This document shows positions 1 to 58,854 of a stretch of DNA of 64,000 nucleotides, piece by piece. The translations under genes were made by a program, and so were the position numbers. The DNA is taken from the NCBI GenBank assembly GCA_961205875.1, contig OY540810.1:21204001-21268000 (forward strand), written 5' to 3'. The notes under the pieces are model-generated. The model worked only from the letters and a program-made list of their open reading frames with translations. It was not told where the DNA came from and did no database searches. How positions within the stretch are numbered: position 1 is the first letter of the stretch; every line of letters begins with the position of its first letter. Source of the stretch: Sialis fuliginosa (Eukaryota > Arthropoda > Insecta > Megaloptera > Sialidae).

Positions 1-2106
1 TTCATATACATCTTAAAGGTAGTTTTAATATAGCTTAGAACGTAAAATATTAAACCTCTGAAAATTGAAAAAATCATACAGTAAACTAAACCTCAAAATA
101 AAAAAAAATTATAAATAAAGATTATGATGACTGAATAGCACATATAATAATTTTATTAAATAAGCCAATTAACCAAATCATTCGATAATAAAGTACGTTG
201 GTCATCAGATTGATACAAACGTGAAGATCGGATGGTTCTATCAGTATTATACATTACCAAACCTCCTCGTTTTTACTGTATAAACGCTCCACAGGTGAAA
301 ATTTTTTATTGTGAAAAGATTACAAACAAATAAATGTAACTGTTATACGTATAAAATAACACTAGTCCATTCAAAATAACACAATTTATTACTGTTTGTG
401 AAGTATTTTCGACAACGCACCAAAATTACTTCCACATATTGAAAACGAAAATTGATGAAAATGACCATCAAGATTACAATTTAAAGATTTAAACCGTTAA
501 TATCTTGTGGCGGGTGATCAATGCCACCTATCTATTGGTGTTACACATACATATTTTTTGTAGTTACGTTAGTACACTTATTAGTCCATCTTTATGAACG
601 CTCCCAGTGTATGAATCCTCCCCATCTCTCTCTACAGGTTAATGTTGCTAGAATACCGTATTTCCACCTAGTTAGTGCAACAAAATACCCAAATTCAGAA
701 TACTCAGCATTATTAATTATTACATTTTCTGGTACATAAGTTCCGCTTAAAACACCACATTCGATTGTGCATTGATAAAAGTAATAAAGTATATTGTAAT
801 GAGCAAAATTATGTATTGATTTTTGTACATTTTGAAGCAGACTAATACAAACTATAACTTTATGTTAATATATATTTAATGGTTTCGTTTCAATAAAAGT
901 AAAAATGACAAATGCGTTTTTAATATGTGTATGTTGGACTATAAAGTCGTGATATTGATTTTATAACTGATGTAATGTTCATGAAACACGATTATATAAA
1001 AGTTCAAATCATTCACTTGTCATCAAACAAATAATTGAACGGTTTTTGTAAATAACATGAAAAATTATTAACATTTTTTTGGTATTGCATTCTATATAAT
1101 ACATAAATCGAATATGTTGCCACTTTTTTATTTTCTTCTTGTGTATAATATAAATAAAATCTATCACAATTTAAAAAATAAGACACAGAATTTTACTTCA
1201 TTGTTTTTAACACACTACACGGTAAATTAGGTATGTCTATATTTAAAAGTTCATTTTAAAACCTCAATACTTTCTGGTAAGATATACAAAATTTAAGACT
1301 TAGGAATCACAATATAATAAAACATATTTAATTTTTATACGTAACATATATACAATTTTTTAAATCAGTATAACAAAAATGTATATCTGAATGTAAAAAA
1401 TGTAAACATAGTATTTTCAGATATGCATACTGATTAAATGCAGACAATTTATGGGTTATACATAAACAAATAAATCAAATGTATTATAATAAACTTTTGA
1501 CAGACCCTGTACTTTTAATATAAAGAAGTTGTAGAACTAATAAAAGTTTGCGGCGTCTATATTCCGCTCGCACAACGCAATATTCCCTGTTAAAGTTTCC
1601 TTCTCACTAAACGTATTTACAACGCAACTTATTATATATATGTACATATGTATATACATACATGTTTGTATATATTATATAATATGTAATTAATATATAA
1701 ATAAGTAATATATAATATAATACATATTTCCTTTTTATTTATGTAAATAAAATGTAAATTATATTTAAATAAAAGAAAATATTGTATAGGTACTAATAGT
1801 TTTTTTTTAACTACAGTTAATAATATCAATATAATGTAATAGGTATGCACCAATAAAAATATTATTATACAATTTTAAGAATCGAAATTACTATTGGATA
1901 GATTGCACATGAAATAATAAATCCGATGTTTGTTATAACGTTATAAGTACATAATATTAAAATCCTGATATTTAATAATACTTTTATATAGTAGGTAAGT
2001 TCACATGTAACTGTAAAATTAATTCTATAGTAATATGTGTATAGTGTATACGTACGTAACATGTACGTACGTACTTGTTAAAAAAAGAATGTACTATAAA
2101 GTAACA
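1..2106. other. AT-rich spacer, no gene seen
   Basis: No exon, RNA gene or transposase-like frame is recognisable. A run from about 1635 to 1730 is almost pure TA/TG/CA alternation (tatatgtacatatg type), and 2049-2073 is a small self-complementary run of ACGT steps. The open frames here are short and low complexity (mostly Y, I, L, N), as expected by chance at this base composition. Confidence 0.6.
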
Positions 2107-2108
2107 TA

Positions 2109-2597
2109 AGGTACTGAAACCAGTATTAGATCATACCCCAGTGTTTATAATCTATATAAACTTAACTGTAAAATAGCTTAATTTGATGAAAATCGGTCAA
2201 TGTGTGTCAAAATGGTGGACATTTAAGCTAATTATAAGTGTAATATTTTTATTAATTATTATATTATCATAGCATCTGCTTTTACATTATTTCAAATGTT
2301 ACGATTCTTTATTTAATTACTTTTGTGTCGTAGTACTTATCATTTTGTTATCATTAGCAAGTGTCCAGCATTATATTACTGATTTTACTTTATCAATTAC
2401 TGGAGAAAAAACATAAACAAAATAGAGGTTATGAGTAAAAAACTATAATTTCGTACTTTGGTAATTTAATTGATTTAAAAGAGGTATTTGTTTTATTAGT
2501 AACATTAGTTCATGAGAATAACAAAAAAGAAGCCCATCAATCCCAAAAAAAACAGTATACCTTGCTCTTAAAATGGCCAAGACTGGTGCCAGTACCT
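2109..2597. mobile_element. TA-flanked MITE, family A, copy 1
   Basis: Both ends are seen: AGGTACTG..ACCAGT at the left and its reverse complement ACTGGTGCCAGTACCT at the right, each flanked by TA (2107-2108 and 2598-2599). A TA duplication with short terminal inverted repeats (TIRs) fits a non-autonomous Tc1/mariner-type element of 489 bp. No coding potential is seen inside. Two other copies lie in this window: an internally deleted one at 33200-33540 and a much-interrupted one at 53851-60231. Copy 1 keeps the intact sequence across the point where Helitrons entered the third copy. Confidence 0.75.
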
Positions 2598-2599
2598 TA

Positions 2600-3075
2600 T
2601 TAGTTCATACTTGTGTATATAATAATAAAAGCAATGAAGTCAGTATATTTTTTACACTTTAAAAAAACAGTGTTAACGCCGATATATTACTGTAGAATTT
2701 AATACATGTATGTAGGAGTACATAATGCATAGCTTTTACGAAGAAAGCTGTCATGTCGGTATCTCCTTGTATCTTTTACCTACTATAATAATATTTGTAT
2801 TTACCCATATAGGTTTTCATATATTCGTGTTGACATGTTGTATGGATTTTTGAGAAAAGTCTTATGCTTGTCAATTACAATTATTTTTTATTGCCAAGAA
2901 ATAAATATTATCTGTTATTTATGTATGTATGCAAATGCATAAATTATGTCGAAGGATTTGTATAGTAATTACTATTTTATTCATTTCAAATTTAACAAAA
3001 ATTTGATTTAAAAATTGTTAAAAAAAATTATCAATAATATTATGAGATAATTATCCAGCATGGAGTTAAATAATC
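2600..3075. other. Spacer, nothing recognised
   Basis: AT-rich sequence following the family A element. I see no frame, TIR or tandem structure worth naming. Confidence 0.5.
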
Positions 3076-3077
3076 CA

Positions 3078-3330
3078 CACTGTCTGTCTGTCCGTCTGTC
3101 ACATCTAACTATTGAACCATTTGGCCTAGAAAACTGAGATTTGGCATAATTATAGTAAGTAGTGGACTAATAATAGACATGAATTATAAAAATAGAATTT
3201 TATTGGTGTTTTTAGAGGAGAGTAAATAGATTAAGCCAAACAAAGTTTTATTCAACCCCGGCGAGTGGGGCATCAAATGAGAGCTGACAATTCAAGGAGT
3301 TTAAATATGTAAACGTTGTGATATTATTGA
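3078..3330. repeat. Helitron/SINE-like leader fragment
   Basis: The block starts with imperfect GTCTGTC repeats (3080-3100). It is followed by 'ttgaaccatttggcc' and 'gagatttggcataatt', the same architecture as the leaders of the better-defined Helitrons at 54.2 and 57.9 kb. A GC-richer tail 'caaccccggcgagtgggg' is at about 3253. No CTAG end with a hairpin was located, so it is probably a truncated copy. Confidence 0.4.
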
Positions 3331-4500
3331 AATTTATAAATTTTCAAAAACAGTGTAAAAATATTTTTTAATAATTGAAAAGTTTTTTAAAAATTGGGAA
3401 TAGAATACTAATACCGAAATCAGATGAAAATTATCAGCACTCATCATACTTACGTATTTTTTTAAATAATTTAAAATAAAAAAAATATATACAATCCATT
3501 TGGTACTCTCTGTTTTCTAATAGAGAAACTATAAAATATAACTAATAATTATTAACTTTATGAGGCTTGGCTCGTACTTGACAATGTTTTTACCTAATGA
3601 GTGTTCATTGTTAATATTGAACATTTTTTCCCTGAACTGAACTACATATATACCTATTTTAAAGATCTAAAAGTGCATAACAGTATGATACGAAAATATA
3701 TTTCAAGAGATAAACATAAATGTTTATATATAATTTTATTGTCAAGAGCAGATACATATAGGTACCTACTGCATTTTTCGATGTAGATTATATCTAATAT
3801 TGAAAACATATTTTCAAACAGTAAAAGTAGGTCATTTTTCCAGAGATCCATACTTTTTCAGTTTTCTTCAGTTATCTTTCGTTCCGCATATTGAAATATA
3901 TTTATGTGTATAAATAAAATGTGTCATCTTTTTTTATACCATTGGTTAATATGAAGTGTTCGATTTTTTTAGACATTCATCAGTTTTTCATTCGTTGATT
4001 AGTTTTTTTATACATATATAAATAGTTTAATAAATATAGTAGACGAAATAGGTAGATAGAAAAAATGCTGTCTATTAATTTAAATAGGTCCATGCAATTT
4101 TTATTTGTATTTATTATGTTTATAGAAAATCCACCAAGTGGAAAATTCTTAAGAGGGCAAATTTATAAAATTAGGAATCTTGCATAGGATTTTCTTATGC
4201 GAAAATTATTCTGAATTTAAAATGTATTTAAAGATATTATTTTATAACAACTGTTTTGCAACTAACATATATTAAAAATTATAATTTTGTCTTTTTTAAT
4301 ACTGCATTTGCATACTCCAATATGTTTCAGTATTTTTAACCGATTTCGAAGAAGGTTCACAACAACCCATATATTTAACAACCCATATAAAATAATTTTT
4401 GTTTGATTGAAAGAAGGTGCTCTTCAGGTGGTCCAATGTTTTCATCGGGACAACTCCCTTTTGCGACATCATCATCAACATGATAATGTCGCAAAATGGA
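3331..4500. other. AT-rich spacer
   Basis: No gene seen. Two overlapping opposite-strand frames around 3600-3850 are low complexity. A small hairpin lies at about 4462-4495, where TTGCGACAT and its exact reverse complement ATGTCGCAA flank a loop of about 16 bases. Its function is unknown. Confidence 0.5.
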
Positions 4501-4539
4501 GCCGGATTATGGACAAAGCAACTTCTCATTGGTTGACAA

Positions 4540-4955
4540 CAAATTCCGCAATTTAATTAAATTAATTTTTTAACTTCCAAAATTAAAATCAAAAATGTCA
4601 ACATATTTTTATATTATGTGCGTGTGCGTGTGTGATTGTGTGTTTATGTATGTACGTATCATTTTTCCTGCACGAAATCTCGCAAATAAAAAATGTTATT
4701 GACTTCGTTGTGGTGCCAATCGAAACGTCTTGTCGTGAATATAATCTGAAAGAAAGGATTTTTGGAAATTCAACCCGTATGGGGGTACAAGGGGGTGTAA
4801 ATATTTATGTGGGTAAATTCCTTTAAAATGTTTCATAAATATATTCACATTAACTATATGGAAACAATAAATAATCAGTATTCAAGTATTAATAGTCATA
4901 CCATGTTGAGAAGTTGATTGTGTGGACCTAAAGGTTCTCACCCCACCCCACGGCT
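4540..4955. repeat. Dispersed repeat family D, copy 1
   Basis: The segments around 4570-4615 ('aaatcaaaaatgtcaacat') and 4845-4955 ('ggacctaaaggttctcac', then CCCCACCCCA) match the same blocks in the same order at 7635-7720 and 7975-8090. The middle part between the blocks differs. The family is unknown; no TIR or target duplication was found. Confidence 0.6.
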
Positions 4956-6045
4956 TATTTTTTTATCTTTTCGAGTGATAAAAAAGTCCTTATAGGTCTA
5001 AACATGAAAATCGGAAATGTTTTTTATTTTTCAAATCAGATGTAGACTCGTAGTCAGACTTAAGCTCACAGATCTTGAGTTGCTTTAAATTATAAAAAAA
5101 AAAAAAAAACAGAAACCACACAATAAGATTCGTTTTCCATTAAAATGTTGTTTACCGCTGTGTCAATATAAATCAATAATACATTGCTAATAGTAATTTA
5201 CTTGACGTACAAAACTTCTAACACCAGCAAACACGCTGATATTTATTATAGCGCAGATGTCTTACAACATACAACATTCACCCATCATCGCTAGACAAAG
5301 AAAACTGGTATATTCGCAGTGAAGGTACTACATAATTAGTTGTGTATTTGCAAATGTCACCGCCAGTTAGCGCCACTGCAGACGCACTCACTATATCGGT
5401 ATGTACGCAAACTAAGTTATTTGGAACGCGTTAAATTACTGTACGTAATTAGAATTGAATTGAAGTTTTGATTAGATTGCGGCAGTAACTGGAACCAACT
5501 GTGTTATTATTACTGAAGAGTGTGAACACCAGCCTCGTCCTCATCTACGAAAGTGATATCTGTAATTATCTTATTCTTTTTCTCCCTTTTCTCTGTATTT
5601 CTGCAGCCGAGAAAGTGTTATTGTACCGGCTGCAAGTGTTTTTATTTTGTTTTTAACTTCTTGCGTTCAACTAACGATAGTATTGGGGTAATGATTTTCA
5701 AGAAGTGTAATTTGAATTTAATGAATACTGTATTTTAAATTTCAGTAGAGACATGGAAAGAACGAGTGAGTTTATTCACGAAATTTTTATTTTTCATTCT
5801 CTTAGTACAATGAGGAGTACTTAATATGGACTTTTTTTAGAAATACGAGTACTTATCATGTCTGGTATTATAAAGATTTGTTTTTAAAAGAACAGTGGTA
5901 CTTCAATTTACTAAAACTATAGACATAGAACTGTGCATCTGCATATGCTTGTTTACTTTATTTAAACATGAGTGTAAAAAACGATAGAGTAATGTTTTAC
6001 ATATTATGTTAATACATAATGCACAGTCCATGTCTCTCTGTCTAT
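4956..6045. other. Spacer with a weak acceptor-like site
   Basis: No gene could be supported. A poly-A run is at about 5094-5110. At 5570-5607 a long pyrimidine tract ends in TTTCTGCAG, a good-looking splice acceptor. What follows (CCGAGAAAGTG...) stays open in one frame for about 40 codons without resembling anything I know. Upstream, 5330-5560 is somewhat less AT-rich. I would not call an exon here. Confidence 0.4.
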
Positions 6046-6049
6046 GACT

Positions 6050-6575
6050 AAAACACAGCTGATGATTGACCGTACAGGATATTTTGCTTCCTCGCAATAT
6101 CGAAGATACGAGAAGCTTTGTGATCGTTTTAAAATGAGACAAAAAAATTGTTCTCCGATTTCAAAATTTTAAATTAATCTTTCCGTTTCAGGTCAAGAGT
6201 AGTCAAAACAAACACTTCCGTGTCTGTCTTGAACTCATGAACCACTGAACTGATATTAATGAAACTTAGTTGGTTGTTTGAGTCAGATTTGAGGACGGTG
6301 TAAGAGGGAGTGGTGACATCCCAAAGTATTTATTTTTTCAAGTTATCTCAAGAACGATACGTCACGTGAAAATTTTATAGAATCTTTTTTGCAGAGCATT
6401 CAATTTCCTATAATATAGGTCTACAACGTTTGTTGTAAAATATTCCCTTACAAAGATTTATCTCAATTTGCATTAAAAATTCGCCAATTGTTTTTTTTTT
6501 GGTTCAATTAATAACTACCTTTGGTGAATTTAGCACGAGGAAGCACTGTGAATTTACTTATCAGATGTTTTTTTA
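6050..6575 (-). mobile_element. Inverted-repeat element family C, partial copy
   Basis: This block is the reverse complement of much of 13340-13865: shared pieces include 'gcttcctcgcaatatcga', 'cttacaaagatttatctc' and the 'ccactgaactgatatt' segment. At its right side 'gtgaatttagcacgagg' to 'cagatgtttttt' is the family C TIR. The part matching 13080-13330 is absent here, so the other copy carries either an insertion or an extra palindromic segment. The opposite TIR is missing. Confidence 0.65.
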
Positions 6576-6579
6576 TATA

Positions 6580-7300
6580 TATATAAACACTATTTTTACT
6601 TTTCCGCGCATGCGCTTAGTATTCATAACAGTTATATAAGTTTGATACCCCGTTAAAAGTGCTTATTGGTTAATAAATATTAATCAATTTCTTACTAGAT
6701 ATGCAACTATTTAAAAAGTTGTATGGACTTATTATTCTAATAATTTCTAAAATGATGCGTCTTACAACCAGTAGAATGAGAATTTTTTCTTTTAAATTAC
6801 ATTCGAACCAATATTATTTAAAAATTTACACGTCATTACAGAAGCACTCACAGCTGCATGTAAGAACACAGGCATTCTACCTGCATAATATAATTTCACA
6901 GTTTATATTGTAACATATTACATATGAATTATACATCCATATTCAAAAATCACTTCACAGAAATATATACTTTTTTCAAGGTCAAAGTAATATAAAAAAT
7001 GTAATAACATACATTAAGTAGCCAATTGTAAGATGCAGTTTAATGTAAGTATAGACTTAACACCAGATGGTGCTACTGCAGAAACATTGCCGCTGGCAAA
7101 AAACTGTCATGGCGTGTAATAAACCGTCAGCAAGATGGCGTATTGACCTGGAGGTATCAAAAAACTCAATAGTACTACACGCAACAAAACCACAAAACTG
7201 TTATGTTCAAATTGTATTGTTCTGTGATGAAGTATTTTCAAACACTTTTTTCTATTTTAATATTAAACGTAACTGACACGAATAAAATAATTATTTGTAG
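6580..7300. other. Spacer, nothing recognised
   Basis: No gene seen. A stretch at 7055-7160 (accagatggtgctactgcag, agcaagatggcgtatt) is less AT-rich. It gives a 69-residue open frame with no motif I recognise. Confidence 0.4.
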
Positions 7301-7311
7301 AAACCCTATTT

Positions 7312-7745
7312 TAAAAAAAAATTATTTTCTTGTTATTGTTTTTTTTAACTCTCCAACAAGAAATTATTGTAATCGGTTCGAAAATCGAAATCAAAAATTT
7401 CAACATATTTTTATGTTTCAAGGTCATTATAGTACATTTATACTATTTTAACCTAATATTTTTAAAAAACAATTATTTTCTTGTAATTGTTTAACTCTCC
7501 AACAAGAAATTATTGTAATTGGTTCGAAAATCGAAATCAAAAATTTCAACATATTTTTATGTTTCAAGGTCATTATAGTATATTTATACTATTTTAACCT
7601 TATATTTAAAAAAAAAAAAACAATTATTTTCTTTAACTCTCCAACAAAAAATTATTGTAATCGGTTCGAAAATCGAAATCAAAAATTTCAACATATTTTT
7701 ATGTTTTAAGGTCATTATAGTATATTAATACTATTTTAATCTAAA
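7312..7745. repeat. Three tandem units of about 144 bp
   Basis: Three consecutive copies share AACTCTCC (7347, 7493, 7635), 'ggttcgaaaatcgaaatc' and 'tttcaaggtcattatag'. The spacings are 146 and 142 bp. Units differ by scattered substitutions and by A-run length. The array leads directly into a family D copy, so tandem expansion happened inside that repeat. Confidence 0.85.
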
Positions 7746-8095
7746 CTGTTGAGGTGAAAACCATCCTCAAAATTTTAATTTTAAATATAATAAATACGTC
7801 TAGGTACTAATTCATGTTGCCTTGGAAAAAATATATGTAATTAAATTCAATTTGTCAGATTGGTTATTCTAAAAAAGTGTATTATATTATTGACATTAGG
7901 ATATCAGAAAGCTAATATTCATAATATTAGTTTTATTTCTGACAAATTCAATTAAATTTTTTCATAAATATATATTTTTAAATATAAACTATATTGTAAC
8001 GATAAATAATCAGTATTTAAGTATTGATAGTCATATCATGTTGGGAAGTTGATTGTATGGACCTAAAGGGTCTCACCCCACCCCACAGGGTCAAA
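7746..8095. repeat. Family D copy 2, 3' part
   Basis: The terminal block at 7975-8090 (gataaataatcagta, ggacctaaagggtctcac, CCCCACCCCA) matches 4845-4955. Just before it, an 11-bp arm AATTTGTCAGA (about 7852) and its reverse complement TCTGACAAATT (about 7938) bracket about 75 bp, so the middle of this copy contains a small stem-forming insert absent from copy 1. Confidence 0.55.
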
Positions 8096-8278
8096 TCATG
8101 ATTAACTAAAAAACCAATTAATTATTAAATAAAATAACATTATAAAACAACCATTGCATAAAAATTATTTCTAATACAAAAACAGAAATACTGCGCTTCA
8201 TCAATATTGTTATTGAAGTAAGTGCAATGTTAATTTAAGATAGTATTCCGGTGCGACGCCTAAAAATTTAAACTTTAA

Positions 8279-8757
8279 GGCACACGGAGCAACCTCTGGT
8301 TTCGTGCAACTGTGCTTGCTGGTCGAATTTCGGTTTCAGTTGCGTGGTTGCATGATATTTTAGCTTTATAATTATAATATTATTATTATTTATTTAGAAT
8401 TAAAATTATTAGTTAATTATTATTATTCCTATTAATAATTACCTACTTAGTTAGTTCATTCAAAATGAATGATCAGTTAATAAACATTAAATTCGTCGAA
8501 GAGGTGGAAAAACATGAAATTCTATACAATTATAACCTTCCTGGGTATTCAAGAATGCTTGACTTTTTACCAAAAGTAAAAAAAAACTTTAAAAAAATCG
8601 TTTTTTTCACGGTAATCCCCATAAAACTATCGACTGATCAATATTCAGTCGCGCTCGTGAGCGGAGCGAGGACTTAAATCGATTGCAAACCAGTTGTAAA
8701 ATAGTCGCTTCCGCAACTGGTTTGCGATTCTCGTTGCAAAACAGTCGCACCGTGTGC
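8279..8757. mobile_element. PIF/Harbinger-like remnant
   Basis: The left end GGCACACGGAGCAAC (8279-8293) and right end GTCGCACCGTGTGCG (8743-8757) form imperfect TIRs, 12 of 15 matching. The sub-terminal regions on both sides are packed with GCAAC/GTTGC and 'gcaaaccagttg' motifs, typical of transposase-binding sub-terminal repeats. The interior starts a frame with a MADF-like segment, a domain often found in the accessory protein of PIF/Harbinger elements. There is no transposase frame; the element looks internally deleted. The target duplication is not resolved. Confidence 0.5.
8465..8677 (+). pseudogene. MADF-domain N-terminal fragment, decayed
   Basis: The frame begins at an ATG in a reasonable context (ttcaaaATGa). 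Residues 10-28 read FVEEVEKHEILYNYNLPGY. That fits the first helix pattern of MADF domains: a hydrophobic residue, E, V, then L-Y and a downstream Y. A MADF domain runs to about 80-90 residues with a conserved W in the next helix. Here the match stops after about residue 29 and the rest (MLDFLPKVKKNFKKIV...) is unrelated and Lys-rich, so the domain is truncated. It lies between Harbinger-like TIRs, so it is more likely a transposon accessory protein remnant than a host regulator. The domain call is by eye. Confidence 0.5.
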
Positions 8758-8759
8758 GG

Positions 8760-9613
8760 AGAGCATTAAAATAGTTTAAAGGTAATTTAATGTTGGGGTC
8801 TTATATAATAACAATTATAAGATTATAACCGTTACTACATTTATATTTTGAAAAGAGTATTTACTGTCTTATTATAAATTACAAAAGGTAGTACGCTAAA
8901 AAAAGGCGTTTATCTCGTTAGTAAACCATATATTGCTTTTTGCCTCAGTTACGTGTAGGAAATCATTTACGGTTACAAACGTAAAAATTTTGAAAAAATG
9001 ATATTACTGCCTTTTACCTAAGCACTCAGAATATATGTTGAATATTATTTTACTACATGCTATAGAAATATTAATCTAGTACTTCCTGACCATATGTGCT
9101 GATTTGAAACGATTAAAACAGTAACAATAGTGAAATGTGAATTCTACAAGAATATTGTTTTGGCAAAGAACTATTTGCGGTTTAGTTTCCGCAAACAGCT
9201 GCGTGATTAAGTCCTTTTACAAGACAGTTGCTTAGTAATTGATACTTGCAAAAATTATTTCTATACATACACTTATGTATGTTCTGAGAATTAACATTCT
9301 TAATTATATGTCTCGACGGAAAAAATGACTACATACAAATTGTTTTAAAAATTATAATTCAGTCATAAAAATTCCGACGCGCAGATTATTGAAGATAATT
9401 ATTCTGTACATAGCTGTTTTATGTTTTTAAATCGATTTAATAAAATATTAAGTCGGATGTGAGCAACGGTATTTGAAAGAAAACGTAAAGGAGAGTGTAA
9501 TAAAAAATACTTATGTGCGTATTAATGTAACTAATTTTATTTTAATTGCTTGGATTTTGTATCATAATAATATACACTACCAGTAATTTTGTACAATAGA
9601 ATTATTTTGTATT
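8760..9613. other. Spacer, nothing recognised
   Basis: AT-rich sequence between the Harbinger-like remnant and the hAT element. No convincing frame or repeat was found. Confidence 0.5.
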
Positions 9614-30077: not shown

Positions 30078-30110
30078 TTTAATATAAAAGTAGTGACGTT
30101 AAATATAAAT

Positions 30111-30184
30111 AAAAACAAACTTGTTTGTCTAAACGTCAAAATATAAATATAAATTTTGACGTTTAGACAAACAAGTTTGTTTTT
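30111..30184. repeat. Perfect 32-bp-arm palindrome
   Basis: Left arm 30111-30142 and right arm 30153-30184 are exact reverse complements around a 10-base AT loop. A weaker outer match (ATAAAAGTA at 30083, TACTTTTAT at 30199) suggests the remains of a longer foldback element about 125 bp in size. It lies 33 bp downstream of a Helitron end. Confidence 0.9.
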
Positions 30185-30209
30185 ATAATATAATTTAATA
30201 CTTTTATCC

Positions 30210-33195
30210 AATCAGAATTAAATTTGACACCACTGTGTGCCCGGAGCATTGCGATTTAATAGTACTTTTTGCGGAAATTTGATTGCCATTGTTAACAATA
30301 TTTTATTATTATTTTGAATATTATGACATTTAAATTGTTAATATTGAGCCAACTTGATATATGTACATTCAATTATTTAATTTAATTCTAAAATCTGTGT
30401 GCATCTATTCCGTTGAAGTTACAGTATCATTTATGCATAAAATAATATCCAGATTGGTAGAACCGGTAAACAGATAACGTATTAATATTACAACATTACA
30501 CGTTTGTATTAAATCCTCTATGCCTGATATTTCAATTTGAGCTATTACAAATTGCCACAATAATATTATAATACATTATTTAGAAAATTTGTATTTAGGT
30601 ATTATCATAGGTAATTGGATTCACCACAGTTAAGTGCACACCTAAAAATTCTATGAAATATTAAATATTTATATATGTACATTGTACATGTATAGATTCA
30701 TTTACTTTTAAGGTAGCGGTGTATGTACCTACTATGTACAATATACATAATCTGTGTCTCAAAAGTTTTGAAGTGGTCAAATATATAAAAAAATGGGTGT
30801 ATCAAAAATATTTAAGGACAGAATTTGATCATTTTTTTTTTAACTAAAATAAGAAGCTTCAATCAGTAATCCATTTAGCCTCCAAAACCTATATCACGAT
30901 AACTAATGTTTCAAAAAAAATGTTAAATGACTAGTGATACTACCAACGACAAATACTAAAGTCAACAACATCATTTCAAATTTTGGAAAAAAGGAAGCGT
31001 GATATAGTTTTTTTTCATACCAAGGTATGTGGGGTGTCGAAATGTAGTTCTCAATTAGTAGAATTTGACCTAAAAATAACACCTGCAAAGTTTCTTAGTA
31101 GGTCCTTTCGGAACCCTCTTACAAAAACCCATGTATGTCTAAAAATATTATATAATAATTAGTCTTCAGCGAACCAAACATTATTATAAAATTTCCGTTT
31201 CATCAAAATTCAAGCCAGCTCGTCACAATACATATAATAATATTTTTTCAGATTTTAAGTATAATTACTTTTTTAGAATAAAATTATATCTGAAATATTC
31301 AAAAAAATAAAATAAAAATGAAAAATAAGTAAACGAGCATACCATAAATAACATCTAAGGAAAAAATCATCATTAAGTTATACTCAAAAACGAAATAATA
31401 AAATATTCCTGAAAAATTAATAACATAAAGGGAAAATTTAAATTATACTTTCAAATGTAAATAAGATATTTTATATACACAAATTTTTTACTTGAAACGT
31501 ACATTTTTGATGTTTTGTGTTATTCTTTTGCTACTTTAGTATTGGAACACGGGGGCTTTTATATATACAACAGAATAATAAAACACGTCTGGTAGCTTTA
31601 GAATTAAAATCTCAAAGAAAGCTTTCGTTACCGTAGCTGTATTTACATCCCATTACCCTTTAAAAAATTCAAAGTTGGGAGTACTTGTTAAAACTTTTGT
31701 TTTAGAAAAATATGAAAATTGAATTTTATTTTCTCTGTACAAGTACGCCCAATTTATATGTATTATCTTATTATATAACAGAAAATTAGTAAGTAAATAT
31801 ATTTAAATAATTAATTATCCTTATTTTGTTTCTGAAATTATAAATGAATTGAAACAGTTTTCTAATCGGTGTGTCGTGAAAATTAAAAAAAAAAATATTA
31901 TTTGATTTTAATCTTTCAATCAATAATTAAAGCAAAATATACTTATAAGATTTGTTATATTTCAAAGTCTATTTAATTACATAAGAATAAATGGAAAACA
32001 TATTTTTTAGAAAAAAAAATTCACGAGATAGACTGATCTCGATATCTTCTCGTAAAAAATAAACCGGCCTCAACTCGTACACGCGATCAAGTCGTAAACT
32101 AGATGAGACCTGGTTTTTTACGAGACGAGACCATTACGAGATAGATTCAACTAGTATCGACTAGTGTGTTACCCTAGAAAAGATCTATAAAACGTAAATG
32201 CAAACCCTTTACCTTTTGTTCATTATTGATGTATTACATATAAATATACCGTAATACGATTTTGTTTTTTTACATAAGTAATAAAAAAATCAATTTTTGT
32301 AGATATTACTGTGATACATTAATTATTTATTATTTTTGGGTTTCTGGCAAATAAAACAAAATTTATATTAAATATATAAAACTATTCCTTCCTCAGTGCA
32401 GTTTTAAATAAAAATATAAATATATTTATTATAAATATATTTATCATTTTGACATTTTATTTAAAAAGGAAAATATTGTAGGTATATTGATAATTTTATT
32501 TAAAAAGTGCACTGAAGAAAGAACATTTGTTCCGACACGTATGCTAATTTTATATATTTCATATAAATTGTGTTTTATTGACCAAAAAAATAATAAATAC
32601 TTTTATTATATGGTCATATTCATAAACTCAAATGACTATAATAATATAATGAAAAGTTAGATTGATATTGGTATCATATTTTGCAAATTACAATACACAA
32701 ATAATATATGTTATAATTGTCTCATAATGCGACAAAAATAACATAACTTAAGTAAGAACAACAATAAAAAGTATTTATAAATTAATTCAATCACACACTG
32801 AAAAACACTTTAGTTAAGCCGCTCTGCAAACTAAGCAGTCACTACCAATATGATGTAGAATATACTTTTACAAAAGAAGCCATCATACGGCAGTTAAAAT
32901 TTAAAGATGCAATATTTCAAACATCTTATGGAAACTAATCCATCAAAAAAATCGTTTTCGAGACAGTTTCAAAGGCTTTCATCTCCTAAAATGAAGCGTG
33001 TTTTACCGCTCTATGCAAGCACATTTTTTCAATTTTCAAGTTAATATTCAGAGCAGCAAAACAGTTCCCTATTCAATGGCACCAGATCGAGCCTCGGGTA
33101 GTACTTATATAGACACACAAATTGCTTCTGCTTATGTATAATGTGGAGAAACTTCATTTTTGTTTTATATACAATGATAGAAATAAATAGTATTC
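30210..33195. other. Long AT-rich spacer with one ACGAG patch
   Basis: No gene seen in nearly 3 kb. 32030-32165 belongs to the ACGAG/CTCGT-rich family (cgagatagactgatctcg, ttacgagacgagacc). Around 32384-32520 'ctcagtgcagttttaaat' and 'atttaaaaagtgcactga' form an imperfect inverted pair. Frames at 30903-31088 are not recognisable. Confidence 0.5.
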
Positions 33196-34234: not shown

Positions 34235-34485
34235 TATACAGTGTATTCCAAGTTGATTAAGACATAGGAAATTTAACATCGGGGCAATTAGAAATGTTGT
34301 AGTAACCTTTGGTCAAATTTAACGATGGTGATTGGTGCATTTTGAAATACCGCCACAAAATTTAATAAAATAGTAATTAGTATTTTGTTTTCAATTCGTT
34401 AAATTTGACCAAAGGTTACTACAACATTTATAATTGTCCCCATGTTAAACCTATGTCTTAATCAACTTGGAATATACACTGTATA
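34235..34485. mobile_element. Foldback MITE with about 90-bp arms
   Basis: The left arm (34235-34326: TATACAGTGTATTCCAAG ... ctttggtcaaatttaacg) and right arm (34396-34485) are near-perfect reverse complements, separated by about 70 bp. Both ends finish in TATACAGTGTA, consistent with a TA target. Only a few mismatches separate the arms, so the element is young or maintained by arm conversion. Confidence 0.85.
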
Positions 34486-35289: not shown

Positions 35290-35570
35290 GTTGAATTTAT
35301 AAGTATTTTTAATTGTTTAAATATTTTGTGAAACAATTAAAATTTGATTTTTCTATTTGTTACGATTCGTTACTCATGTGACTTCTGTATTGTAGAACAG
35401 TGGTTTTCAACATGTGATCCAGGGGTCTTCGGTGGACTCGAGTGTTGGAAACCAATGGTTTAACCGTTAACGGGTTAATTTGACTCAACGTTTCCACTGA
35501 TGTGAGGATGTTTCACGCCTCCACTGGCGGGTTAATTGTAACATCGGTTATTCAGAGCTACAGTTTATTT
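35290..35570. other. Spacer with a hAT-like end at 35398
   Basis: CAGTGGTTTTCAACATGTGATCC from 35398 (first 20 bases diagnostic) resembles hAT termini of the CAGTGGTTCTCAAC type. 'taaccgttaacgggttaa' at about 35461 is a short palindromic patch. No partner end or duplication was identified. Confidence 0.4.
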
Positions 35571-35994
35571 GAGCTATGTGAACTTGGCAACTGACTTTGG
35601 AAAATTAAATTTTTTTATATGCATTCGTTTGTACCTCGTTTGTACCCGTTTGTACCGCAAAAATTTTCGTTTGTACCTCAAAGGGCTAAGAGATATAATT
35701 TTTTTAAAAAAGGGTAGCAACCAACATTATAATATTAAAAATCTGTGAACGGCATCAGCTTCGACATCGTTTGTACCCGTTTGTACCGCAAATATTATTG
35801 GTTTTAAACAAAGGGCTAAATATTGAAAATTAAAAATAAGGGCGACATCCAAAAAGTTCCAAAGTGGGTATTTCTAATTTGGATTGTTTAATAAATTGTT
35901 TATCATGTGCAATCGTTTGTACCTTTTGTGCGTTTGTTTGTACCACCAAGGGTTATCTTTTAAGTCTAAGGGCTCGAAGGGAAAAACAAAAAAA

Positions 35995-37320
35995 ACATCG
36001 TAGACTAAGTAATTTTCGGAATATTTTAAATCTGTAAACGGCATTGATTTCAGTGTCATTTGTACTCGTTTGTACCGCATATAGTTTTGTTTGTACCTCA
36101 AAGGACCAAAAGTTACAAACGATTGGACATTTGAAAATCTATTATTATTGTTATTTCGTGTTTGGTATATTAAATAAATTGTTTATCATATGCAATCGTT
36201 TGTACCCTTTGTGTGTTCATTTGTACCACCAAGGGTTATCTTTTAAGTCTAAGGGCTCGAAGGGAAAAACAAAAAAAACATCGTAGACTAAGTAATTTTC
36301 GGAATATTTTAAATCTGTAAACGGCATTGATTTCAGTGTCATTTGTACTCGTTTGTACCGCATATAGTTTTGTTTGTACCTCAAAGGACCAAAAGGTACA
36401 AACGATTGGACATTTGAAAATCTATTATTATTGTTATTTCGTGTATGGTATATTAAATAAATTGTTTACCATATGCAATCGTTTGTACCTTTTGTGTGTT
36501 CGTTTGTACTACCAAGGGTTATCTTTTAAGTCTAAGGGCTCGAAGGGAAAAACAAAAAAAACATCGTAGACTATGTAATTTTTGGAATATTTTAAATCTG
36601 TAAACGGCATTGGATTCAGCGTCGTTTGTACTCGTTTGTACCGTAAATAGTTTTGTTTGTACCTCAAAGGGCCAAAAGGTACAAACGATTGGACATTTGA
36701 AAATCTATTATCATTGTTATTTCGTGTATGGTATATTAAATAAATTGTTTATCATATGCAATCGCTTGTACCTTTTGTGTGTTCGTTTGTACAACCAAGG
36801 GTTATCTTTTAAGTGTAAGGGCTCGAAGGGAAAAACAAAAAAAACATCGTAGACTATGTAATTTTCGAAATATTTTAAATCTGTAAACGGCATTGATTTC
36901 AGTGTCATTTGAACTCGTTTGTACCGCATATAGTTTTGTTTGTACCTCAAAAGGCCAAAAGGTACAAACGATTGGACATTTGAAAATCTAATATCATTGT
37001 TATTTCGTGTTTGGTATATTAAATAAATTGTTTATCATATGCAATCGTTTGTACCTTTTGTGCGTTCGTTTGTACCACCAAGGTTTATTTTTTACTCTAA
37101 GGGCTAGAAGGGAAAAACAAAAAAAACATCGTAGACTATGTAATTTTCGGAATATTTTAAATCTGTAAACGGCATTTAATTCAGCGTCGTTTGTACTCGT
37201 TTGTACCGTAAATAATTTTGTTTGTACCTCAAATGGCCAAAAGGTACAAACGATTGGATATTTGAAAATCTATTATCATTGATATTTCAAATTCGGTACT
37301 TTAAATAAATTGTCTATCAA
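35995..37320 (+). repeat. Direct-orientation part of the 283-bp array
   Basis: Five landmarks spaced 283, 283, 283 and 282 bp. Units differ by scattered substitutions, for example ACTAAG versus ACTATG after the landmark and TACTCGTTTGTACC variants. GTTTGTAC words are spaced irregularly within each unit, often with a short gap between pairs. Confidence 0.9.
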
Positions 37321-38153
37321 GTTCGAGCCCTTAGACTTAAAAAAATAAACCTTGGTGGTACAAACGAACACACAAAAGGTACAAACGATTACATATGATA
37401 AATAATTTATTTAATATACCAAACACGAAATAACAATGACACTCGATTTCCAAATATCCAATCGTTTGTACCTTTTGGCCCTTTGAGGTACAAACAAAAC
37501 TATTTGCGGTACAAACGAGTACAAATGACGCTGAATCCAATGCCGTTTACAGATTTAAAATATTCCGAAAATTACATAGCCTACGATGTTTTTTTTGTTT
37601 TTCCCTTCGAGCCCTTACACTTAAAAGATAACCCTTGGTTGTACAAACGAACACACAAAAGGTACAAGCGATTGCATATGATAAACAATTTATTTAATAT
37701 ACCATACACGAAATAACAATGATAATAGATTTTCAAATGTCCAATCGTTTGTACCTTTTGGCCCTTTGAGGTACAAACAAAATTATTTACGGTACAAACG
37801 AGTACAAACGACGCTGAATCCAATGCCGTTTACAGATTTAAAATATTCCTAAAATTACATAGTCTACGATGTTTTTTTTTTTTTCCTTCGAGCCCTTAGA
37901 CTTAAAAAATAACCCTTGGTGGTACAAACGAACACACAAAGGGTACAAACGATTGCATATGATAAACAATTTATTTAATATACCAAACACGAAATAACAA
38001 TGAAACTAGATTTTCAAATGTCCAATCGTTTGTACCTTTTGGCCCTTTGAGGTACAAACAAAACTATTTGCGGTACAAACGAGTACAAACGACGCTGAAC
38101 CCAATGCCGTTTACAGATTTAAAATATTCCGAAAATTACATAGTCTACGATGT
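37321..38153 (-). repeat. Inverted part of the 283-bp array
   Basis: Three landmarks spaced 283 and 281 bp in reverse orientation, starting abruptly at 'aagttcgagccctt'. The junction shows no spacer: the direct and inverted halves are fused within a unit. The halves are unequal (five versus three units), as expected from unequal exchange within the array. Confidence 0.9.
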
Positions 38154-38579
38154 TTTTTTGTTTTTCCCTTCGAGCCCTTAGAGTAAAAAAATAACCCTTG
38201 GTGGTACAAACAAACGCACAAAAGGTACAAACGATTGCACATGATAAACAATTTATTAAAAAATCCAAATTAGAAATACCCACTTTGGAACTTTTTGGAT
38301 GTCGCCCTTATTTTTAATTTTCAATATTTAGCCCTTTGTTTAAAACCAATAATATTTGCGGTACAAACGGGTACAAACGATGTCGAAGCTGATGCCGTTC
38401 ACAGATTTTTAATATTCTAATGTTGGTTGCTACCCTTTTTTAAAAAAATTATATCTCTTAGCCCTTTGAGGTACAAACGAAAATTTTTGCGGTACAAACG
38501 AGTACAAACGAGGTACAAACGAATGCATATAACAAAAATTTAATTTTCCAAAGTCAGTTGCCAAGTTCACATAGCTTGG

Positions 38580-57894: not shown

Positions 57895-58854
57895 TCCATA
57901 CTAATATTATAAATGCGAAAGTGTGTTTGTCTGTCTGTTTTCTGTTTGTTACCTTTTCTAGCCGTGAAAACCGCTTTACCGATTTTGATGAAATTTGGCA
58001 GTGAGATAGCTTGCATCCCGAGGACGGACATAGGCTATTTCGTATCTTAAAAATTCAACCCCTAAGAAATTGCAAGGGGGTGGAAATTTTTTAATTTTTT
58101 TTAGTAATTATTATTTTACCCCCCGATACATATGAAGGGTTGTAAGTGGTTTTATTCGATCCGGCGGGAAAAATACCACGGGGGCGTAGGTTTTAGGGGG
58201 CAAAACAACCCTCTATCTCGCATAGGAGCCGAGATATTTACGATTTTGTATAATGAAAGAAAACTAAAAATAAGAAAAATTTAATATTTTACCCCCTGTC
58301 ACATATGAAGAGTTGTAATTGATTACATTCGATCTGGTGGGCAAAAATACTACGGAAGAGGGATTATTAGGGGGACAAAACAACCCCTTATCTTACATAG
58401 GAGTCGCGACTTATATTATAAATGCGAAAGTGTATCTCTCAGTCTGTCTATTTGTTACCTGTTCACGACTAAACTGCTTTACCGATTTTGATGAAATTTG
58501 GCAGTGAGATGGCTTACATCCCGAGGACGGATTAAGGCTATTTCGTATCTCGAAAATTCAACCCCTAAGGAATTGCAAGGGAGAGGAAAATTTTTAATTT
58601 TTTTTAGTAATTATTATTTTACCCCCCGTTACATATGAAGGGTTGTAAGTGGTTTTATTCGATCCAGCGGGAAAAATACCACGGGGGCGGGGGTTTTAGG
58701 GCGGAAAAACCCCTCTATCTCGCATAGGAGCCGACACATTTACGATTTTGTATAATTAAAGAAAACTAAAAATAAGATAAATTTAATATTTTACCCCCTG
58801 TCACATATGAAGGGTTTCGAAATCCACGCGAGCGAAGTCGCGGGTAGCAGCTAG
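57895..58854 (+). mobile_element. Helitron 3 of the cluster, internally duplicated
   Basis: It starts TCCATACTAATATTATAAAT, a leader found in many arthropod genomes, and ends 'gcgggtagcagCTAG'. The leader and body occur twice, 509 bp apart (from about 57905 and 58412). Within each, a block beginning 'ttttacccccc' with 'acatatgaagggttgtaa' is itself repeated about 175 bp apart. The tail 'acgcgagcgaagtcgcgg' gives the terminal hairpin. Non-coding. Confidence 0.8.

Follow-up and report, generated by a model that had tools for sequence, protein, structure and literature searches.

The 3,005-bp element at 35572..38576 of the window, the 64-kb stretch of Sialis fuliginosa DNA analysed here, is strongly supported as a transposon of the foldback type and as one copy of a dispersed family, with mirrored arms around opposed arrays of ~283-bp units (Table 1). 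We call it a foldback transposon because the family has dispersed copies, fixed tips, a 9-bp target duplication and variable arrays, and because one copy has a transposase-like core. With high confidence, we further interpret the element as a non-autonomous DNA transposon copy whose family moves, or once moved, by cut and paste through a DDE transposase of the Mutator-like (MULE) type supplied by full copies. Since a coding core lies between the same arrays in another copy (L019) and centre junctions are shared among copies, the window element was probably moved in trans, by an enzyme that a rarer sister copy probably encodes or once encoded.

An earlier note, made from the letters of this DNA, had described two mirrored outer arms of ~423 bp, five units of 283 bp facing three in reverse, an abrupt inversion at about 37320 and a potential hairpin of more than 1.2 kb, and all of these features were recovered. 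The arms are present, with tips exactly at 35572 and 38576; the arrays hold 5.1 forward units (period 283) and 3.3 reversed units (period 281); and the inversion is present in this assembly. The outer arms are 97% identical over 399 ungapped bases (35596-35994 against 38153-38551) and 98% over 429 bases in the arm search of the genome. Aligned as a hairpin, the two halves match at 1,212 of 1,253 positions (96.7%) in five blocks, so that they could pair over 1.2 kb, leaving unpaired the unit at 36264-36548 and a stretch at 37111-37320. The predicted RNA folding energy of the element is -2090 kcal/mol with 90% of bases paired; two control stretches of equal length (3,005 bases) from elsewhere in the window gave -568 and -589 kcal/mol, with 58% and 61% paired. 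Rfam and tRNA scans of the window returned no matches.

Table 1. Features of the foldback element and its immediate flanks, in positions of the 64-kb window
Feature	Position	Strand	Basis
Whole foldback element, very probably a non-autonomous copy	35572..38576	.	Facing identical tips; family copies at other sites
Left tip AGCTATGTGAACTTGGCAACTGACTTTGG	35572..35600	+	23-base core at 63 genome places, <=2 mismatches; control 0
Right tip, mirror of left	38548..38576	-	Tip comparison
Left outer arm, 8 exact GTTTGTACC words	35572..35994	+	Self-alignment and word count
Right outer arm, 7 exact GTTTGTACC words	38153..38576	-	Self-alignment and word count
Forward array, 283-bp units, 5.1 copies; overlaps inner end of left arm	35890..37319	+	Period 283
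Reversed array, ~282-bp units, 3.3 copies; overlaps inner end of right arm	37322..38257	-	Period 281
Centre junction, orientation switch; differs from the centre common to 7 other copies	37318..37324	.	
Extra unit, unpaired in hairpin alignment of halves	36264..36548	+	Hairpin alignment
Left flank GTTTATTTG; no 9-bp duplication against right flank, 2/9 positions match	35563..35571	+	
Right flank TGGGATAAA	38577..38585	+	Flank comparison

Other repeats lie in the same window. A dispersed repeat at 35468-35536 adjoins the element on its left and accounts for 29 of the 41 left-flank genome matches listed (81-93% identity). Three self-complementary stretches, at 34235-34485, 30084-30207 and 32321-32602 (76%, 83% and 64%, respectively), resemble small inverted-repeat elements; 57900-58314 and 58409-58816 form a direct duplication of 415 bp at 90%, and 7307-7744 holds three tandem copies of a 146-bp unit.

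The earlier note had proposed a genome search with the arm and an inspection of flanks for a duplication of fixed length, and this search found both dispersed copies and such a duplication. In the genome of 392 Mb (20 contigs, the window sitting in contig C2), the left arm gave at least 200 matches, 40 of 78 candidates having been scored, and a 23-base tip pattern allowing up to two mismatches occurred at 63 places, 32 forward and 31 reverse, against none for a reversed-pattern control. We compared the window copy with 35 further genome stretches (36 sequences, two of the stretches, L012 and L013, being halves of one copy), among which 15 copies, the window copy included, have two tips. A 9-bp target duplication flanks 11 of these 15, seven exactly and four at 8 of 9 positions, whereas none of 210 mismatched left-right flank pairs, taken as a control, exceeded 6 of 9 matching positions; its length falls in the 8-11 bp range described for MULEs (PMC6446971). 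The features of the foldback class are thus present in the family: inverted arms of tandem repeats, scattered copies that share their tips and a duplication of constant length, and variation in unit number. The L012/L013 flanks share a 6-bp match only, out of register, and the duplication is absent from L022 (1/9), L034 (3/9) and the window copy (2/9), which was therefore probably changed after insertion by flank deletion or rearrangement. No sign of ectopic recombination between the window copy and a partner was found in flank searches, which gave no more matches than their controls (7 against 15, and 25 against 26). In two pairs of copies, L029/L033 and L028/L031, the outer flank next to the tip is identical or nearly so by eye, which may reflect either segmental duplication or independent insertion into one kind of repeat.

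Copies differ greatly in size and share parts in ways that bear on their history. Length runs from 817 to 7,854 bp in 14 two-tipped elements (L012/L013, split between stretches, left out), and 120 full units, partial units having been dropped, came from 19 of the 36 sequences, L018 contributing the most with 24. One centre junction is common to seven of the 36 sequences (L009, L010, L012, L016, L018, L020 and L034), with 0-2 differences in 25 bases, and the window copy's own join at 37320 occurs in none of the 35 others, the best of which has 8 mismatches in 30 bases. Because the window centre differs from the junction that these seven share, several foldback centres arose. Within a copy, arm-to-arm identity is 98.6% for the window element and 87-99.8% for a further twelve copies in which both arms could be compared. 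Eight of the 13 have one or both arms more similar to an arm from a different copy, and we infer that arms were probably exchanged or copied between elements. The innermost forward unit was considered as a tie of the window copy to L018 and L020 and dropped, the same stretch occurring in 10 of the 35 other sequences. An assembly artefact is an unlikely source of the whole structure, because 14 other insertions have both facing tips and seven of the 36 sequences share one centre.

The copy on C8 has itself received insertions. A second foldback is nested in it at L012:3164-6252 and shows no match to the family element at a threshold of E 1e-5; it has facing arms of ~1,030 bp at 96%, ~151-bp units, the tip TGTCCATGAAGTTAGCAGAGC and a duplication of 7-11 bp, for which 9 bp fits and whose boundary is ambiguous. 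This nested element sits inside a 283-bp unit, and intact sister units show the empty site. Another insert in the C8 copy, L012:8681-9993 with L013, has a 938-bp inverted repeat at 99%.

A coding-type copy of the family was found in L019 (contig C14), where an element of 7.9 kb at 965-8818 has the same tips and ~282-bp arrays and is flanked by an exact 9-bp target duplication, CCGAATATG. The core between its arrays holds reverse-strand frames of 488, 141 and 416 codons; because these coding frames are interrupted, L019 is probably a dead copy, and no intact source with the family tips was found. Judged from profile matches, its products resemble a MULE transposase (weak Pfam matches) and, through a relative, a ubiquitin-protease-like domain. 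The first frame matches the MULE profile PF10551 weakly (E 0.044), at the same profile positions (13-87 of 99) as L051 (E 0.029) and L052 (E 0.0013), and all three matches (14.6, 15.2 and 19.5 bits) lie below the Pfam cut-off of 27.6 bits. In L051 the unrelated profile DUF5382 outscores MULE (E 0.0081), and five of the eight loci scanned (L045, L047, L048, L053 and L054), those with the longest frames included, gave no PF10551 match at E <=1.

Relatives of this transposase frame are numerous, with 36 genome matches, L019 counted. Two of the relatives, L047 and L048, are 98.8% identical over 4.4 kb and have open frames of 1,190 and 1,174 codons; since the family tip is absent at both, they are probably related elements with other ends. 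NCBIfam returned nothing relevant for four proteins. A search of viral contigs for relatives of the long-frame transposase gave no matches, and a broader alignment was too little conserved to serve as a query. A further relative, at C5:33107500-33110999 and 44-46% identical to the L019 transposase frame, immediately precedes an exact copy of the family tip, which is directed away from it; the two are possibly neighbouring elements.

Several other readings of the element can be weighed against this one. Its tandem 283-bp units would suit an immobile sequence, either satellite DNA or a tandem array that was assembled wrongly, and foldbacks can seed satellites, as is described for Tetris (PMC4079207); the window's centre join, seen in none of the 35 other sequences, would also fit. 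This explanation is nevertheless highly improbable, as copies that bear arrays, end in fixed tips and are flanked by 9-bp duplications are spread over several contigs, and one centre is common to seven loci. Where the earlier note compared the element to FB or Galileo, the first comparison stands and the second does not: the element looks FB/Rehavkus/Mutator-like rather than Galileo-like because its target duplication is 9 bp, not the 7-8 bp of P and Galileo, and because Pfam gave no THAP match. Long inverted arms that are themselves repetitive and carry a recurring short word would suit a Galileo-like P-superfamily foldback, its words serving as sites for a THAP-type transposase, and the repeats of Galileo arms are described as able to bind the THAP domain of its transposase (PMC3688188), a likeness that would make the words here candidate sites. 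However, that transposase is of the P superfamily with a THAP domain, and Pfam detected neither a THAP domain at E <=1 nor a P-type transposase in the L019 core frames or the relatives scanned, so that with the length of the duplication a Galileo-like origin is scarcely credible.

Membership of Rehavkus proper, an arthropod and annelid group that roots the MULE tree, would be a finer placement compatible with our preferred reading of a foldback family moved by a MULE-type enzyme. For Rehavkus, PMC6446971 lists inverted repeats of 26-400 bp and a 9-bp duplication, together with a minisatellite and a PHD finger. Rehavkus-1_TC of Tribolium castaneum is described as 9.5 kb long, its inverted termini carrying 164-bp units that mostly stand in rows of five and eight (PMC10218199). 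The present family shares with these descriptions the 9-bp duplication, the repeat units in inverted termini and a coding length of several kb, and L019, a 7.9-kb element with ~282-bp units in its inverted termini, is very close in architecture to Rehavkus-1_TC as described. The related locus L053 (C3) has a 144-bp tandem array at L053:1-554, ~800 bp ahead of the frame for its transposase, so its ends may carry repeats too. Against this placement, the unit is ~283 bp here and 164 bp there, no comparable array was found at L045, L048, L051 or L052 within the stretches examined, and Pfam scans of 12 proteins returned no PHD finger such as that group has, a result that is not final since the family's own coding copy is broken. 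We do not file the family as Rehavkus because no PHD finger was found and the comparison is one of published descriptions; that it belongs there is a serious possibility, to which we give a little less than an even chance.

FB repeat units are short, ~10-31 bp, against ~283 bp here. As described, FB (Foldback) of Drosophila, the type for long repetitive inverted arms (PMC4079207, PMC3688188, PMC3169594), is similar in having long, internally repetitive inverted arms of variable length. Tm1 of root-knot nematodes, a Mutator/Foldback element (PMC3169594), differs, by its description, in a unit of ~14 bp and in a Phantom-like transposase with a FLYWCH finger, for which the L019 frames and the relatives scanned gave no Pfam match. 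Tetris of Drosophila virilis is described with ~220-bp arm units in variable number and with 8-9 bp duplications in three complete copies (PMC4079207), and is likewise a foldback with long arm units; by that account a transposase-encoding copy was not found there, whereas a broken coding-type copy (L019) exists here. Together with the mosquito Muta elements, described as having subterminal tandem repeats and 8-9 bp duplications (PMC5225508), Tm1 and Tetris indicate by comparison that repeat-bearing arms have appeared more than once in Mutator-like elements and foldbacks. Within the reach of these searches, with Rehavkus, FB, Tm1 and Tetris compared by their descriptions, the family appears to be a new one of a known kind of element, and it may itself already be in Repbase or Dfam.

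The word GTTTGTACC occurs 46 times in the 64-kb window, always within the element (25 on +, 21 on -) and never in the remaining 61 kb; a first-order Markov model of the element predicts 0.06 occurrences in it. This agrees with the dozens of words in both orientations that the earlier note had reported; of its suggestion that they were selected or amplified, amplification holds, as the words look amplified, and selection is not supported, word positions being no better kept than their surroundings. Searched for as literal text in the literature, GTTTGTACC or GGTACAAAC yielded no transposon paper among the matches listed, judged by title, and pattern scans of viral and prokaryote collections gave no matches.

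Whether the words are dense because selection kept them as candidate binding sites, for a transposase or a host protein, was examined in several comparisons. The excess of 46 over 0.06 speaks for this possibility, as does the spacing of a relaxed form of the word: all 30 spacings below 40 bp on the same strand measure 10, 11 or 21 bp, close to one or two turns of the helix, a phasing that is suggestive. These spacings are not independent, however, because duplication of a few ancestral blocks accounts for both the number of words and their spacing. In three diverged segment pairs word positions were favoured at P 0.13, 0.026 and 0.23, one of the three thus matching better at words, and a fourth, closer pair showed no preference (P 1.0); nor did the 120 units, in which majority agreement was 0.961 at word positions and 0.938 elsewhere (P 0.89). 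In 20 older arms, those with <92% identity to the window arm among 41 aligned arms that reach the tip and position 330, agreement with the young majority was slightly worse at words than elsewhere (0.801 vs 0.834, P 0.003). Between the old and young majority sequences, differing columns numbered 0 of 72 at words and 8 of 326 at other positions (P 0.36). Tip agreement in the older arms was 0.916 vs 0.834, a figure biased by the requirement that matches begin at the tip. Dead copies would show no selection in any case, and a role of the words in the source lineage is therefore still compatible with the null result; on balance we hold selection on the words to be a tentative reading, less likely than not.

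The third frame of L019 adds a possible second domain to the coding copy. Compared with the terminal part of the L048 frame, as read in L059, it shows 28% identity, and the two have in common a TCAFD box, an HY.AY box and two sets of paired cysteines close together. In Pfam the L059 region matches UCH (ubiquitin carboxyl-terminal hydrolase) below the cut-off, with 19.5 bits against 23.9 (E 0.00083). A two-row profile of L019 and L059, searched against structure sequences, gave seven matches, all to ubiquitin carboxyl-terminal hydrolase 2 (USP2), at E 0.031-0.044 over ~40 residues around the HY.AY box. Single-sequence searches with the L019 third frame gave nothing relevant, and one with L059 among structures gave an unrelated chain only (E 0.51). 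At four places (C1, C8, C5 and C3) the open frame holding the match to the first frame of L019 and the one holding the match to the third are equally long (1,190, 1,174, 772 and 731 codons). On the strength of these resemblances a ubiquitin-protease-like fold is likely in the L019 third frame and L059. A bolder proposal, which we consider speculative and rather unlikely, is that the family, together with its relatives in this genome, represents an undescribed foldback-forming lineage with a MULE-class transposase fused to a putative ubiquitin-protease-like domain, the helically phased words being a candidate landing pad for multi-site binding of the enzyme; if so, the protease-like domain might shield the transposase or change host chromatin marks. 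Ulp1 is reported beside MULE in the literature, and a search for a transposase with a ubiquitin-protease domain found none among the papers listed, judged by titles and abstract openings.

A scheme can be proposed for how foldbacks of this family may form and grow. We infer that a MULE-type DDE transposase, from full copies of which L019 would be a broken example, recognises the tips, possibly with the assistance of the repeated arm words, and that insertion would generate the 9-bp target duplication. Once the coding core was lost, the two repeat-bearing arms would meet in opposite orientation, head against head, as a foldback, in which slippage or unequal exchange may then alter the number of 283-bp units.

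The family is unusual in its long units, in the series of derivatives found in one genome and in its possible protease-like domain, which, if it holds, would be an unusual partner for a transposase. Galileo, a foldback-like element, has caused inversions, and Tetris is described as having seeded satellites (PMC4079207). In Sialis fuliginosa the series runs from a coding-type copy, via derivatives with a shared centre, to short remnants, so that the formation of foldbacks and the growth of their arrays can be traced in one genome.
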